From: Candidatus Bathyarchaeota archaeon
Lineage (GTDB): Archaea; Thermoproteota; Bathyarchaeia; Bathyarchaeales; DTEX01
Direction of reading: 5' to 3'
Assembly: GCA_003601835.1 (NCBI GenBank)
Contig: PIYB01000001.1
Span: 1 to 53,758, forward strand
Length of the DNA stretch: 53,758 bases
Shown here: piece after piece, positions 36,631 through 44,122 of the stretch
How positions within the stretch are numbered: position 1 is the first letter of the stretch
Layout: every line of letters begins with the position of its first letter
The notes under the pieces: generated by a model
Databases searched by the model: none
Seen by the model: only the letters and a program-made list of their open reading frames with translations
Told to the model about the DNA's origin: nothing
Program-made: the position numbers and the translations under genes

Positions 36631-37284
36631 ATGATTGACATCTCCCAGTACAGGATAATTGATCTTTCCGCTGAAATAAAACCGGGAATCCTGAAGGTGA
36701 ACGGAGAATACGTTCACGGGAACCAGCCTAGAAGGTTCGAGATACGTCAGTTCATATATGCTCCTGACAAGGCTTTGATGCATTGGGTTGAAACTGAGAC
36801 CCACATAGGAACCCATGTTGAGCTTCCTGCGCATCTTACTGACGGAGCAAAATCTGCCTCTGAAATGCCCATCGAATCTTTCATCGGTGAAGCAATAGTC
36901 TTGAAGTTCCATTCGTTGAAACCGGAAGACGTACAAGGAAAACCGATAACGCCGTCTCACTTAGCTAACGTGAAGAAAGGAGACATCGTGCTGATGTGGA
37001 GCCCATACCAAGGCAACGAACAACCCTACATTTCACCAGAATCCGCAGAATTGCTCGCTGAAAAACCAGTGAAGATGGTTGGAATCCAAAACATTAAAGT
37101 TGAAGCACCCGGCGGCTCCATGGCAACGCACATCAACCTGCTGAAGAACGAGATTCCGCTGATCGAAGGCTTAGTTAACCTCGAAAAAATTCAGAAAGAA
37201 AGAGTGTTCTACATCGGTCTCCCATTGAACGTAGCTGGTCTTGACTCTTCATGGATCAGAGCCATAGCTCTCGAGCCACGGTGA
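36631..37284 (+). CDS. Cyclase-family metal-dependent hydrolase (kynurenine formamidase-like)
   Basis: A 217-residue protein of the cyclase family (Pfam PF04199). The signature region THIGTHVELPAHLTDGAKSA carries the HxGTHxDxPxH-type metal motif, with Glu in place of the usual Asp. MGIQNIKVEAPGG-type sequence (MVGIQNIKVE) and HINLLKNEIPLIEGLVNLEKI complete the fold. Relatives hydrolyse N-formylkynurenine, isatin or make polyketide rings. Here the substrate is unknown. It begins with ATG 51 nt downstream of the acyltransferase. Confidence 0.87.
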   Translation: MIDISQYRIIDLSAEIKPGILKVNGEYVHGNQPRRFEIRQFIYAPDKALMHWVETETHIGTHVELPAHLTDGAKSASEMPIESFIGEAIVLKFHSLKPEDVQGKPITPSHLANVKKGDIVLMWSPYQGNEQPYISPESAELLAEKPVKMVGIQNIKVEAPGGSMATHINLLKNEIPLIEGLVNLEKIQKERVFYIGLPLNVAGLDSSWIRAIALEPR

Positions 37285-37377
37285 GAAGAAAAACGGCTTG
37301 AAACAAAAGATTAGGAACAGCATCCTAACTTTTTCATTCAGGGAATCTTGTCTTGAACCCGGATGCATGCAAAAGTT

Positions 37378-38181
37378 TTAAGGTTTTCTGAAGATGCGGT
37401 AATCCACGAGTTCAATGTTTTTCTTTAGAATTACCTCTTTGACTCTGGAGCTTAAAAGACACCTTAGTTCGGCTGCTCGATGGTTTCCAACGCCTAGTTT
37501 CATCACGTCAGCAGGTTCACTGTGAACTAACGCCTGCCCATCTGGGGATTCGACAAGAAGATGGTTCACCAGAAGCCAAAGCCCAAGTGTTAATGCTTCC
37601 AGCTGCTTCACCAAGATTGTTTCCTTTGCCCATGGAGGCTTAGAGTAGACGCCGGGCACAAATTTTTCCCCGGATTTTCCTGAAACCGGCAGTCCGTATT
37701 CTTCGGAGAGCTCCATGATGGCTTTGGTGAAAATGTTTTCTTTTCCCCGTTCTTCGTATCTTATGTAGTGAGCGTCGGGGTAACAGAGCTTCACGCCCCA
37801 TTTTTTCAAAAGCTCTATCTGCGCCTTGAGCTCCTTTTTTACCTCATTGAACTGGGGGTTAGCTTCAAAGAATTCTCTGGGCGAGTTGTGGAGAAAACCG
37901 TCTTCGTCTACGATGCTTGGAATCTTATCGTACGGTAACACAGGTCTCCAAGAGTATCCTTTCCATTCTCCGATAACTGAAAGATGCGCTCCGATACACC
38001 ATGAAGGGTTAGTCTTAGCCATTTCAGCTGCTTCTTTAGCTCAAGGTGCAGCTGCGATGATGGCGGCGCAGGTTAAGATTCCTTGTTCAAACGCCTTCAT
38101 TACAGCTAGGTTGCACGAATGAAGCAGCCCCATATCGTCGCCTCTAACTATGAGCCTTATTTCTCGTTCAGAAGAAACCAT
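37378..38181 (-). pseudogene. YdjC/ChbG-type deacetylase interrupted by one in-frame TGA
   Basis: The frame from ATG 38181 encodes REIRLIVRGDDMGLLHSCNLA, with the metal motif RGDDxG, and continues to CAAIIAAAP. A TGA then falls at 38043-38041, and the same frame resumes as AKEAAEMAKTNPSWCIGAHL to a normal end at 37378 (267 codons plus stop). In this family the interrupted site is usually Trp (PWF or similar), so one G-to-A change, TGG to TGA, explains it. No other defect is seen. ATG at 38022 is only an internal Met. Probably a recent pseudogene; readthrough of UGA is the alternative. The gene removes N-acetyl groups from chito-oligosaccharides in known relatives. Confidence 0.75.
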
Positions 38182-38264
38182 CCTCGTCACCTTGAGAAAC
38201 AGAATGGGCTGTTCTCTAATTAAGCCTTCGCCGTCCTAAGAACACGTGAAACCTGATGTTAGCT

Positions 38265-39299
38265 CTATTCTAGACCGGAGCGGTTGAACGGACAGACCTT
38301 TATGCACGTCGAGCAGCTTGCGCCGTTCTTACGCCAGAACATGAAACACTTCTCAACGTTAACGTACCATTTTAAAGCCCCGGGATTGTTAGACCGGCAT
38401 GCAATCTCGTAGCTGGGTTTCTCGGATGTGGAGATGGCTCCCACCTCGCAAGCTTCGGCGCAAAGCTTACATTTTTCACAGAACTCCTTTATCCCAAACT
38501 CGATAGGCTTGTCCGTTTCCAACGGGAGATCCGTAAAAACTTTGCAGAGCCTGACTCTTGGACCAAACTCAGATGCTATCAAGAGACCGTTTCTGCCTAG
38601 TTCTCCAAGTCCGGCGTCAATGGCGAGAGGAATACTTAAAGCCGTGTCGTTTCCGCACGGCATCGCTTCGTAGCCTAAGTTACGGATGAACTGTCATATG
38701 CATGTTAGAACAAAATCCATCTTCGAATATCCTACGCCTGTAACGGCAGAGGCAAGAGGACTGGGAGACGTGGCGATGGCATCGGCATCCATCTCGATCG
38801 CCATCACGATTACGTTTTCTAAATTGTCGGGAACATAGGCATCTGCGTAAACCCAGTTCTTATTGAGCTTAGTTACGCCCACCAACGAAGCGCCGAACAG
38901 TCTAGCCGCATATTTAAGGCGTTGGCTCATCTCATGCAGGTCATCAACCTTGATTCTCTTCGCATGCCAGTTTTCCTCAGCTAAACATAAACAGTTTCTT
39001 GGAACGTCACGGGAGAACGGTTCTAGTCTGTTCCGCCGGTAACCTCGTCTAAGAACGCGTTGAACCGCGCGGGAGGCGTGTGCTAGGGCGAAGTCAATCG
39101 GTGAATATTCGGTTTTTGTGTCTCTTCCTGTACCGCGTTTCTCGGTGATGTGTTTCTTCCAAAAACCGTCCCATGATGGGTCCCATCTTATTCTTCCGAA
39201 GATTGTGTTTTTGCTGTTAAACCTTTGAAGTTTAGATGGGTCAATGACGTATGGCGGTTTATCAACGGTCTTAACTTTAAACCGAGGTCTATGTGTCAT
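38265..39299 (-). pseudogene. Reductive-dehalogenase-like 4Fe-4S protein interrupted by one in-frame TGA
   Basis: The frame runs from ATG 39299 to a TGA at 38696-38694, then continues in the same frame as QFIRNLGYEAMPCGNDTAL to 38265. The family is RdhA-like: GYSKMDFVLTCI before the stop and GNDTALSIPLAIDAGLGELGRNGLLI after it, followed by CEKCKLCAEAC and CSTCIKVCP for two [4Fe-4S] clusters. In relatives the interrupted position is variable, often Ala. The C terminus ends soon after CPFNRSGLE and is short. No twin-arginine signal is visible at the N terminus, as in cytoplasmic non-respiratory members. Likely decayed; UGA recoding is possible but not favoured. Confidence 0.72.
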
Positions 39300-39448
39300 C
39301 TTTGTTTCCGTTCCTTTTTTACGCCGTGTTCTTTGTTCCTTTTTTCATTAAACGGTTTCCGCTGTTACCGGTGTTCTGGGTAACCTGCATCTACGTTTCA
39401 AGGGTAGCTCTGTTGTTGTATAGAAAGCAAAAATAAGTGTACTTAAAG

Positions 39449-39464
39449 AACGTGAATTCACGTT
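39449..39464. promoter_or_regulatory. Sixteen-base perfect palindrome upstream of UPF0147
   Basis: AACGTGAATTCACGTT lies six bases upstream of the TATA element TTATAT (39470-39475) that should drive the UPF0147 gene. Its position just 5' of TATA fits a regulator site. No partner protein is evident. Confidence 0.45.
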
Positions 39465-39503
39465 TAAGCTTATATCTCTGTTTCTTGTTTTATAGGATAA
39501 CAG

Positions 39504-39522
39504 GACACGCTTTCTGCGTGTC
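39504..39522 (+). promoter_or_regulatory. Hairpin in the 5' leader of UPF0147
   Basis: Seven-base arms GACACGC and GCGTGTC flank a TTTCT loop. If transcription begins about 25 nt after the TATA box, the stem sits at the very start of the leader, about 30 nt before the ATG at 39553, where it could affect RNA stability or translation. No known riboswitch is recognised. Confidence 0.4.
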
Positions 39523-39552
39523 GGATGCTTATTGGGTCAGAGGGGATTAAGA

Positions 39553-39831
39553 ATGGTTAGTAAGAAGAAACTGAAGGAATACGAAGAAAGAATAAAACAG
39601 GCTATGTTCATTCTCGGTCAAGTTTCAGAAGACACAACTACTCCACGAAACATTAGGAGAGCCGCCAAAAACTCGATGGATACGCTTCAGTCAGAGGATT
39701 ACACATTAGGCGTAAGGGCGTCCAACGCAATTTCCATCCTTGACGAGATCCTACAGGATCCAAACATGCCGCCTTACACCCGTGTTAAACTTTGGAACGT
39801 AATGAGCCTTCTTGAAGCGATAAAAGACTAG
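39553..39831 (+). CDS. UPF0147 family protein
   Basis: A 92-residue all-helical archaeal protein of UPF0147. It reads KLKEYEERIKQAMFILGQVS, then TPRNIRRAAKNSMDTLQSED and the family-typical ASNAISILDEILQDPNMPPY before TRVKLWNVMSLLEAI. Function is unknown but the family is widespread in archaea. The ATG at 39553 has AGGGGATT upstream; seven codons of in-frame sequence before it are probably leader. The promoter carries a palindrome and the leader a hairpin. Confidence 0.9.
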   Translation: MVSKKKLKEYEERIKQAMFILGQVSEDTTTPRNIRRAAKNSMDTLQSEDYTLGVRASNAISILDEILQDPNMPPYTRVKLWNVMSLLEAIKD

Positions 39832-39957
39832 CCCGCGAAACCCGTATATCCAGGTCTCCTGCACAAGCATTTTTTCTTTGAATCATCATCCCTCAATGTA
39901 AACGCTTTATAACAGGCAGCAAGCAAGATGTTACTGCGGAACAAAGCAGAAGGATAA

Positions 39958-40973
39958 GTGATTTGCGTGCCTAAGGAACTTGTCGCTGTAGCTCCTGGAG
40001 AAGTAGCTATAAGAGAATATGAAGAGCCTCTTTTGGCGCCGAATCAGGTTCGTATAAAAAGCGAGTTGTCTGCGGAGAAACATGGCACCACGATGTCCAT
40101 TTACAGGGGAATCTCTCCTCTTTCAGACAAAAGGTATGACTCGGAGCTAGGTTTGTTCCTTCCTAAAAGTCATGCTGGAGGCTGGACAGCTTCGTTTCCG
40201 ATGAAGTTGGGGAACATCACTGTTGGAACGGTGACAGAGTTTACGGTTATCTGCCGATTAGAGAGACCCATACGGTTAACGAGGAAGCCGTTAATCTTGC
40301 GCCGGAAACATTAAGCAATGAGAACCTTGTTTGCATTGATCCAGCTGTGGTTGCGCTTATGGGCGTCCGTGAAGGACATGTAAGGGTCGGGGACACCGTG
40401 GCCGTGTTCGGGTTGGGGGCAATCGGGCTTATGGCTGTTAGGCTAGCGAAAATTTCAGGTGCGTTGAAGATTGTAGGGGTTGAGCCGTTCGAAAGAAGGA
40501 GGCGGCTTGCTGAAACGTATGGGGCTGATGTGACTTTAGACCCGTTTGAGAGCGATGTTGGGTTGCAGATCAAGGAGATCACGGAAGGCAAAGGTGTGGA
40601 CATCTCCATAGAGGCAAGCGGGTCGTACAGCGCTTTACATCAAGCGATTAGATCGACGAGGTATGGTGGTACAATTGTTCCGGTCTCATGGTACCACGGT
40701 GAAGCCAAAGGTTTGAATCTAGGTGAGGAGTGGCATTTCAACCGTCAAATCATGGTGTCCGGGGCCCGTGTAGAAAGCGAACCGTACCGGGATTATCCTC
40801 TTTGGAACAGAAAGCGCATCTACAGGACCGTTATAGAGCTGTTTAAACGGAGACTGCTGACAAGCGAGGGGATGCTGTGTCCCATTGTTCCATTCGAAAA
40901 GGTTGTTGAAGCTTACAATATGCTTGTGGAGAAACCTGAAGAAACCGTTAAATTAGGTGTCACGTACGTATAA
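39958..40973 (+). pseudogene. Zinc-type/MDR alcohol dehydrogenase with frameshifting deletion
   Basis: Two pieces in different frames make one medium-chain dehydrogenase. The first (GTG 39958 to about 40231) has the N-terminal GroES-like part ending MKLGNITVGTVT. From GGT at 40230 the other frame reads DRVYGYLPIRETHTVNEEAV through AVFGLGAIGLMAVRLAKISG (NAD loop) to the end at 40973. The sequence usually between these (a loop of about ten residues) is missing, and both sides meet at GGTGAC (40230-40235), so a deletion between short repeats is likely. The result is a shifted frame and no functional enzyme. The zinc-ligand Cys/His set is incomplete. Confidence 0.8.
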
Positions 40974-41015
40974 GCTGCCGGGGAAAAACGGCGGTCAAGC
41001 AGGTGTGTTGAACAG

Positions 41016-42071
41016 TTGCCGTTACGTGAAGCTATGCTTTACGAACGTCTTCCGGGTAATCGTGTGAGATGTAACCTCTGTGGACGGCGATGTTTGATCC
41101 CTGAAGGCGGCTATGGATTCTGCCGTGTTAGAAAAAACCAGTCGGGCAAGCTTTATTCTCTTAACTATGCTAAGGCTTGTGCAGCTCACGCTGATCCTAT
41201 TGGTAAAAAGCCTCTGGTGCATTTTCATCCTGGCGCTTTAGTTATGTCCATAGCAACCGTTGGATGCAATTTTCGCTGTCGGTTCTGCGATAACTGGTCG
41301 ATAAGTCAGGAAACGGATATTCGCGGCACATATTTTCCTCCGGAAACGGTTGTCAAAGCAGCTCGGGAACATGAATGCCAAGGCATCAGCTACACGTACA
41401 CGGAGCCAACGGTTTTCTTTGAGTACGCTTACGACACAGCTGTTTTGGCTCACAAACAAGGGTTGTTCAACACTTTTGTGACTAACGGGTACATGACGCC
41501 TGAAGCCGTCAGAACTATTGCTCCATACTTGGACGCGGCGACGGTTGACTTCAAAGGCGGCGGCGACCCTGAGTTTTACAAGAGATTCTCTTCTGTTCCT
41601 TCCGTTAACCCGATTTACGAGTCTCTTAAAGAGATGAAGCGGCAAAACATCCACGTTGAGGTTACGAACCTTATTGTGCCGAAGATAGGTGACTCGATGG
41701 ACGGGATTGTTGAGCTCGCAACGTGGATCCGTGAGAACCTAGGTGCCGACACGCCTTTTCACCTTTTGAGGTTTCATCCAGATTACAAGCTCAACAACAT
41801 CAGCTCAACCGAGATCAGGACTCTTGAGGAAGCATACGAGGCTGCAACCGAATCCGGTTTGAACTATGTTTATCTGGGAAATGTTCCGGGTCACCGGTAT
41901 GAAAACACGTACTGTCCCGAATGCGGGGAGCGGCTCATCGAAAGATACGGGTTCAGCATCGTCAAATGGAGGTTAACCGAGGACATGAAGTGCCCAAGCT
42001 GCGGGAAAAAGATTCCCATCGTAGGCAAGTTTCACAAGGAAGGTTTCTCGTTTCCGTATTCTCTGCTCTGA
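41016..42071 (+). CDS. Radical SAM enzyme, AmmeMemoRadiSam system type (AmrS-like)
   Basis: A 351-residue radical SAM protein. The N-terminal CNLCGRRCLIPEGGYGFC is followed by the SAM cluster motif Cys84-x3-Cys88-x2-Cys91 in GCNFRCRFCDNW, then SYTYTEPTVFFEYAYD and VTNGYMTPEAVRTIAPYLDAATVDFKG, typical of this family and of pyruvate-formate-lyase-activase relatives. A C-terminal zinc ribbon (CPECGERL, CPSCGKKI) closes it. The usual partners, an AMMECR1 and a Memo-like protein, are not adjacent here. Start is TTG. It lies just after the broken dehydrogenase. Confidence 0.88.
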   Translation: MPLREAMLYERLPGNRVRCNLCGRRCLIPEGGYGFCRVRKNQSGKLYSLNYAKACAAHADPIGKKPLVHFHPGALVMSIATVGCNFRCRFCDNWSISQETDIRGTYFPPETVVKAAREHECQGISYTYTEPTVFFEYAYDTAVLAHKQGLFNTFVTNGYMTPEAVRTIAPYLDAATVDFKGGGDPEFYKRFSSVPSVNPIYESLKEMKRQNIHVEVTNLIVPKIGDSMDGIVELATWIRENLGADTPFHLLRFHPDYKLNNISSTEIRTLEEAYEAATESGLNYVYLGNVPGHRYENTYCPECGERLIERYGFSIVKWRLTEDMKCPSCGKKIPIVGKFHKEGFSFPYSLL

Positions 42072-42151
42072 TCGTTCAATGGAACACGAGTTTACATCCT
42101 TTCTTTTTTTGGGAATCAGATTAACCGTCTTACGCAGCGTTAATAAGATTG

Positions 42152-42157
42152 TTTTAT
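42152..42157 (+). promoter_or_regulatory. TATA box of the second radical SAM gene
   Basis: TTTTAT lies 29 nt before the ATG at 42181, so the transcript probably begins at or next to the start codon. This also argues against using the earlier in-frame ATG at 42079. Confidence 0.5.
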
Positions 42158-42180
42158 CCTCACTTGTCTATAGAAGATCA

Positions 42181-43272
42181 ATGTGGCGCATTATTAGGAG
42201 AGACGCAGCAACAGTCCTGAACGACGAGAAGGCGCGGCGTAGTCTAGCCAGATATTTTGCGGTTATGCAGGATGAGAAGCCAGCCAAATACGTGATTGCC
42301 AAGAAGATTCCAGCGGATTTTGATGAAAACGATTCCGTTCAGAAACTATGGGACATTCATGAAAACCTTCTGGCAGAATTCTTTCGTCTGCAGCAGGATG
42401 TGGACAGCCGGAAAGAAGATTTGGATGCGATGGGAAAACCTGAAAAGTCGTTTCTCGACTTGAAAGCAGAAATAGCAACCCGAATCCTCGAAAGCTGTCA
42501 TTTCTGCACGAGACGTTGCGGGGTCAACCGGTTAGGCGGGAACCTTGGCTACTGCAAATGTGGCTCAGAGATCACGGTTTCTTCCATGTTTGAGCATTTA
42601 GGTGAGGAGCCTGAGCTGGTTCCTTCCGGTACAATCTTCACCATGGGCTGCACGATTCGTTGCCTTCACTGTCAGAACTGGACTATATCCCAATGGTTTG
42701 AGAACGGAGAAACATATTCGCCTCGCAGGTTGGCGTTGGCAGTCGAACGGTTACGAAGAAACGGGTGTAGAAACGCCAATCTTGTCGGCGGGGAACCTAC
42801 ACCTTGGCTTCAACAATGGCTGCAGACGTTTAAACATGTAAACGTCAATGTGCCGGTTGTTTGGAACTCTAATTCCTACTACAGCGAAGAGACGGCTACC
42901 CTTCTCGCCGGCTTCGTTGATGTGTATCTTTTGGACTTCAAGTACGGGTCTAACGAGTGTGCGGAAAGGATTTCTGACGCGCCGAACTATTGGGAGGTGT
43001 GCACGAGGAACCATCTGTTTGCGAAAAAACACGGTGAACTCATCATCCGCGTCCTAGTTTTACCTGGGCATCTTGAGTGCTGCACGAAGGTTATTCTGAA
43101 CTGGATTGCTGAAAACCTAGGTAGAGACACGAGGGTTAACATAATGTTTCAGTACCGACCTGAATGGAGGGCTTATGAGGTTCCTGAGCTTAGAAGAAGA
43201 TTAACCGGCGCCGAGAGGAGAAGAGCCTTAGAGCTCGCAAAAGAGGCGGGTCTAGCAAACTTCATAACGTAG
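42181..43272 (+). CDS. Radical SAM protein, PflA-like, with extra N-terminal domain
   Basis: A 363-residue radical SAM protein. Residues 1 to about 90 are a helical segment (RFAVMQDEKPAKYVIAKKIP region; WDIHENLLAEFFRLQQD). CHFCTRRCGVNRLGGNLGYCKC supplies a Cys-rich site. The SAM cluster is Cys157-x3-Cys161-x2-Cys164 in MGCTIRCLHCQNWTISQW, and NLVGGEPTPWLQQWL is a partner motif. It is not a close copy of the neighbour. I chose the ATG at 42181 because TTTTAT at 42152-42157 gives a leaderless message; the frame upstream looks non-coding. Its substrate is unknown. Confidence 0.87.
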   Translation: MWRIIRRDAATVLNDEKARRSLARYFAVMQDEKPAKYVIAKKIPADFDENDSVQKLWDIHENLLAEFFRLQQDVDSRKEDLDAMGKPEKSFLDLKAEIATRILESCHFCTRRCGVNRLGGNLGYCKCGSEITVSSMFEHLGEEPELVPSGTIFTMGCTIRCLHCQNWTISQWFENGETYSPRRLALAVERLRRNGCRNANLVGGEPTPWLQQWLQTFKHVNVNVPVVWNSNSYYSEETATLLAGFVDVYLLDFKYGSNECAERISDAPNYWEVCTRNHLFAKKHGELIIRVLVLPGHLECCTKVILNWIAENLGRDTRVNIMFQYRPEWRAYEVPELRRRLTGAERRRALELAKEAGLANFIT

Positions 43273-43283
43273 CTTCTTATATA

Positions 43284-44122
43284 TTGTCGTCTGATAAGCT
43301 CCAGAACAAATTAGGCGGGTTCACTGATTCGCTGGAAACCAGGGTTAGAGATGTTTTAGAACTGGGTTTTGAGGCTAAAACGGAACACGGTAACCCTTTC
43401 GTTGACGTAGTATTTGACTGCAAGTTCACCGCCCCTTCGGGAAAAGAATGGGTGGCTCCCGGATTTTATGATGGGCAAGGAACGTGGAAGGTAAGGTTTT
43501 CTCCAAATGAGGGGGGACGCTGGACCTACGAAACCGTCACCAATGTTGAGGATTCAGGTCTCAGAGCAAAAGGCGAGTTCGATGTTTCTGAACCGGACAA
43601 ACCGGTTAGAGGGTTCCTTAAAACTTGCCCGGGTAAATATTGGGGTTTAGAATACGAGTCAGGCTTCAGGTCAGTCCGTACCATCCTCCTGAAGGATACA
43701 ACGACTGGCAAACCCGGTCAACCTGGCCGTGGCAAGGGTCTCCGCAAAAACCAAATTTTGACGGATTCAACCTTGAATATTTCCGCACTGTGGACAAGGT
43801 TGTGCGTTTAGCCTCAGACCTAGGCATCGGGTTTGAGATGATAATGGAGGCGTGGGGGTTTGAATACCCCTTCAATCAACGGGATGTTTTTCTGCCCGAG
43901 TATGAGGAGCTGTGGATGAGGTATCTTGTCACCGGATATGACGCCTTCACCAGCGTCTATATATGGACGTTGATGAACGAGTACGAATACTATCCGGACG
44001 GTGACTGGCGCTACAATCGGGCAGCCGTCCTTTGGACAATAAATGTTCACACCTTCCGAAGCCGCTACGAGTTTCATCTTTTCTTTAAGCATAACAATCT
44101 AAAAGGCGAACATCGAAATTGA
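43284..44122 (+). pseudogene. DUF5060/DUF4038-type glycoside hydrolase, broken and truncated
   Basis: The first frame (from 43284) encodes an immunoglobulin-like DUF5060 module (VDVVFDCKFTAPSGKEW, RWTYETVTNVEDSG, GFLKTCPGKYWGLEYESG). At about 43650-43670 it switches frame to VRLQVSPYHPPEGYNDWQTR, with the start of the TIM barrel that should follow much later missing. It then runs through FDGFNLEYFRTVDKVVRLAS and IWTLMNEYEYYPDGDWRYN before losing homology after about 44030. So there is an internal deletion with frameshift plus C-terminal loss. It follows two radical SAM genes and marks the end of the decaying stretch. Confidence 0.7.

Follow-up and report, generated by a model that had tools for sequence, protein, structure and literature searches.

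Two adjacent TGA-interrupted genes in a bathyarchaeal genome are probably recent pseudogenes of a decaying accessory segment

Introduction

Two neighboring genes on the minus strand of a 53,758-nucleotide stretch of Candidatus Bathyarchaeota archaeon DNA (contig PIYB01000001.1, hereafter the window) each carry a single in-frame TGA within otherwise conserved sequence. Are these genes pseudogenes, or is UGA read as an amino acid at these sites? An annotation made from the sequence alone (the initial annotation) left two hypotheses standing: recent pseudogenes in a decaying segment, or context-dependent readthrough or recoding of UGA in this lineage. The genome (G000) is a draft of 67 contigs, 85% complete, from which we sampled stretches totaling approximately 549 kb, including the window. 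Comparisons drew on genomes of the same family, order, and class.

Results

The first gene (37378 to 38190, minus strand) encodes a YdjC/ChbG-like carbohydrate deacetylase and is interrupted at 38041 to 38043. When this TGA is read through, the frame matches PF04794 (E 3e-34) over profile positions 1 to 262 of 266. The second gene (38265 to 39299, minus strand) encodes a reductive-dehalogenase-like (RDH) Fe-S protein and is interrupted at 38694 to 38696; read through, it scores 204.6 bits against TIGR02486, for which the cut-off is 160.35. The sequence bears out the positions and strand first reported for both stops. Each frame is open apart from its one TGA, with conserved family sequence on both sides.

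We then examined which residue homologs carry at each stop. For the RDH-like gene, we compared 80 loci in named genomes, mostly Bathyarchaeota and Lokiarchaeota, taking order-level relatives first. The site is Gly in 58 homologs, Ala in 19, and Ser in 3, and a stop in none. The initial annotation had described this stop as lying at a variable site, which is incorrect: with Gly, Ala, or Ser in 80/80 homologs, the site is conserved. The lesion is probably a GGA to TGA change, a single step, at a conserved Gly. For the YdjC-like gene, the site is Trp in a paralog from the same genome (contig C54), in another genome of the class (G003), and in PDB 8jqe, while it is Tyr in 2i5i. A scan of genome contigs with a single YdjC protein gave no relatives, and a class-wide search found a full relative in only one other genome (G003), so the ancestral residue is based on few sequences. 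Within that small set, the nearest relatives uphold the earlier proposal that this stop occupies a family Trp position, one step (TGG to TGA) from the intact codon. Intact codons in homologs of the same lineage had been named beforehand as a sign of decay, and intact codons are what the alignments gave at both sites, though in homologs that share the order of this archaeon and not its genus. Given that the sites were ancestrally Gly in one gene and Trp in the other, a single meaning of UGA cannot restore both proteins.

Apart from the stops, both genes are clean. The RDH copy deviates at 4 of the 55 columns on which the 33 other sequences agree without exception (median deviation 0), which may reflect relaxed constraint; all RDH homologs are about 61% identical to it or less. 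It nonetheless retains its Fe-S cysteine motifs and most of the columns that are invariant across the family. Across the two genes there is one lesion each, with Fe-S cysteine and metal-site motifs kept, which suggests that both were functional until recently and that their inactivation is recent. In another bathyarchaeon (G027, L193:4001-4939), a gene of the same RDH family has been broken independently, by several different stops and a frame disturbance; the RDH gene thus appears dispensable.

The genomic context of the two genes differs among relatives. In G009, a genome of the same family, the gene order of the window is kept (AFOR, ferredoxin-like, hexapeptide protein, cyclase, UPF0147, dehydrogenase, AmrS, radical SAM, hydrolase), except that only about 168 bp lie between the cyclase gene and UPF0147, where the window has the YdjC-like and RDH-like genes. 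The segment missing from G009 corresponds to 37285 to 39531 of the window. In two further genomes, G008 and G017, UPF0147, the dehydrogenase, and AmrS are also neighbors, but other genes lie upstream of them. The remaining 20 genomes of the family all lack the RDH gene of the window. Taken with the synteny in G009, this marks the YdjC-RDH block as accessory in the family, whether by gain here or by loss elsewhere.

Two more broken genes, which the initial annotation did not report, lie close to this block. The first is a zinc-type medium-chain dehydrogenase pseudogene (39955 to 40973, plus strand) with a deletion of about 40 bp and a frameshift near 40230 to 40240: the frame of the N-terminal part runs out near 40235, and the C-terminal part is encoded in a different one. 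Its homologs comprise 10 open frames of 352 to 372 codons, found in eight genomes of the same family and two others of the order, and DNA alignment with these intact homologs shows 40 bases missing. At the deletion junction, the sequence GGTGACAGAG can be read as the expected codons in either frame; the deletion may therefore have arisen by slippage between short repeats. The second is a glycoside hydrolase remnant (DUF5060 plus an apiosidase-like domain; 43284 to 44122, plus strand) with an internal deletion, a frameshift, and a C-terminal truncation; its PF16586 and PF13204 matches fall in two different frames. At the same place, G009 has a far longer hydrolase copy (L248, from 11397), part of which adjoins a run of N. 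The genes between these lesions are intact. UPF0147 (39532 to 39831, plus strand; PF03685, E 1e-32) is flanked by broken genes and is 93% identical to its G009 counterpart. The AmrS-like gene and a second radical-SAM gene (41016 to 43272, plus strand; TIGR04337, 320 bits), likewise flanked by broken genes, are 77 to 79% identical to G009 and contain no stops.

These neighbors bear on two alternatives. One is that a near-cognate tRNA reads UGA at low level, so that both nonsense alleles would keep part of their function and a low level of expression. According to one report, in-frame stops that are under purifying selection are widespread among bacterial genes (PMC7918605), and the YdjC-like and RDH-like genes are both otherwise clean. 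However, readthrough could not rescue the frameshifts and deletions in the neighboring genes, the two sites need different residues, and the stop is conserved in no homolog; we consider this explanation very unlikely. The other alternative is that the lesions are sequencing or assembly errors and that the cell itself carries unbroken genes. Although the draft status of the genome, at 85% completeness in 67 contigs, lends this some plausibility, the lesions differ in kind, with two base substitutions alongside a clean deletion of 40 bp and a hydrolase that is truncated, and the interleaved conserved genes show no breaks relative to G009. We give sequence error a very small probability.

To place the four broken genes in the context of the genome, we compared 734 ORF frames of at least 120 codons from the relative G008 with the sampled stretches, where 254 found a match. 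Beyond the dehydrogenase of the window, there was one clear further pseudogene in approximately 160 kb aligned, so the rate is low. This pseudogene (L077:5540-6443, on contig C9) has one TGA and a frameshift. The comparison also gave a possible split gene (L141) and an isolated TGA near the end of a gene (L070). Stops in matches at L124 and L127 were discarded, as these were judged to be spurious antisense frames.

TGA is used as an ordinary stop in this genome: among 128 conserved genes of the sampled stretches, 39 end in it. The initial annotation had excluded wholesale reassignment of UGA, and this count agrees; we reject genome-wide reassignment because TGA is a normal stop. No tRNA with a UCA anticodon was present among the tRNAs found in G000, and these included no tRNA-Trp of any kind, probably owing to introns and incompleteness. 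Of all single-step routes to a stop codon in the YdjC-like and RDH-like genes, 30 to 35% lead to TGA, so two TGA codons out of two lesions are expected about 1 time in 10. Chance is the best reading of the shared codon. Four broken genes in approximately 7 kb are more notable than the common codon, and they fit an accessory stretch that is no longer under selection.

Some Bathyarchaeota encode selenocysteine, and a PSTK-SelB fusion has been described in this group (PMC9499178); we therefore searched for the selenocysteine machinery here. SepSecS was detected in 3 of 61 genomes, all belonging to one other family of the order. In these genomes it lies near a PSTK-like frame of 706 to 790 codons (G026:C92, G060:C98, and G039:C234), consistent with the reported fusion. 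These observations are what would favor selenocysteine insertion, or another dedicated recoding of UGA, in the YdjC-like and RDH-like genes. Against it, SepSecS is absent from all 21 genomes of the family, including G000, and the 85%-complete G000 has no match to PSTK. SelB and tRNA-Sec, which the initial annotation had singled out as things to look for, gave nothing over cut-off in G000: all SelB matches score below it, as do the best tRNA-Sec matches, which fall on ordinary genes for tRNA-Cys and tRNA-Ser. Two tRNA-Cys (GCA) genes are present in this small archaeal genome (G000:C61:29974-30046 and G000:C17:58680-58751), and both are among those best subthreshold tRNA-Sec matches. No Rfam element was found at 37000 to 40000, although Rfam may lack models for archaeal SECIS elements. 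The sites themselves argue in the same direction. Homologs have Gly, Ala, or Ser at one UGA, the nearest relatives have Trp at the other, and neither site is Cys or Sec; G026 and G060, which carry both SepSecS and an RDH gene, have Gly at the RDH site. On the site residues and the machinery, we reject selenocysteine; the probability of any dedicated recoding is extremely small. The proposal of context-dependent recoding finds no support, given the differing ancestral residues, the absence of TGA from all 80 RDH homologs (0/80), and the lack of detectable selenocysteine machinery in G000.

Discussion

The YdjC-like and RDH-like genes are very probably pseudogenes of recent origin within an accessory region that is decaying, with no special reading of UGA. 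Of the two original hypotheses, decay is the one that the comparative sequence data favor: homologs carry intact codons at both sites, deletions and frameshifts mark the genes nearby, and the block is missing from a relative with the same gene order. One nonsense substitution would have inactivated each gene, TGG to TGA at a Trp codon in the YdjC-like gene and probably GGA to TGA at the conserved Gly codon in the RDH-like gene. The accessory block lies in a stretch where the dehydrogenase (40-bp deletion) and the hydrolase (deletion, frameshift, and truncation) are also broken. The likely cause is that selection no longer maintained sugar-related and redox functions that were dispensable, and the YdjC-like and RDH-like genes presumably yield no useful full-length product.

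For annotation, four genes within 37378 to 44122 should be marked as pseudogenes. Readthrough of UGA, if true, would mean that Bathyarchaeia decode this codon in a new way, but the data speak against it. We regard this UGA-recoding candidate as closed, the pattern being explained by ordinary gene decay.

Comparison with known systems leads to the same place. Archaeal selenoproteins, known from Methanococcales, Lokiarchaeota, and some Bathyarchaeota, likewise have an in-frame TGA within a conserved archaeal gene. In the window, however, homologs have no Cys or Sec at the sites, Rfam gave no SECIS element, no selenocysteine machinery was found, and the TGA is not conserved. Reassignments of UGA to Gly and to Trp (NCBI codes 25 and 4) recall the ancestral residues of the two sites, but here TGA is a normal stop in 39/128 conserved genes, and the sites would need two meanings. 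Ordinary prokaryotic nonsense and frameshift pseudogenes are the closest match: in accessory regions they result when dispensable genes suffer single substitutions or small deletions, while homologs elsewhere and the conserved genes in between stay intact. The window does not differ from them in anything substantive; both of its nonsense lesions simply happen to be TGA.
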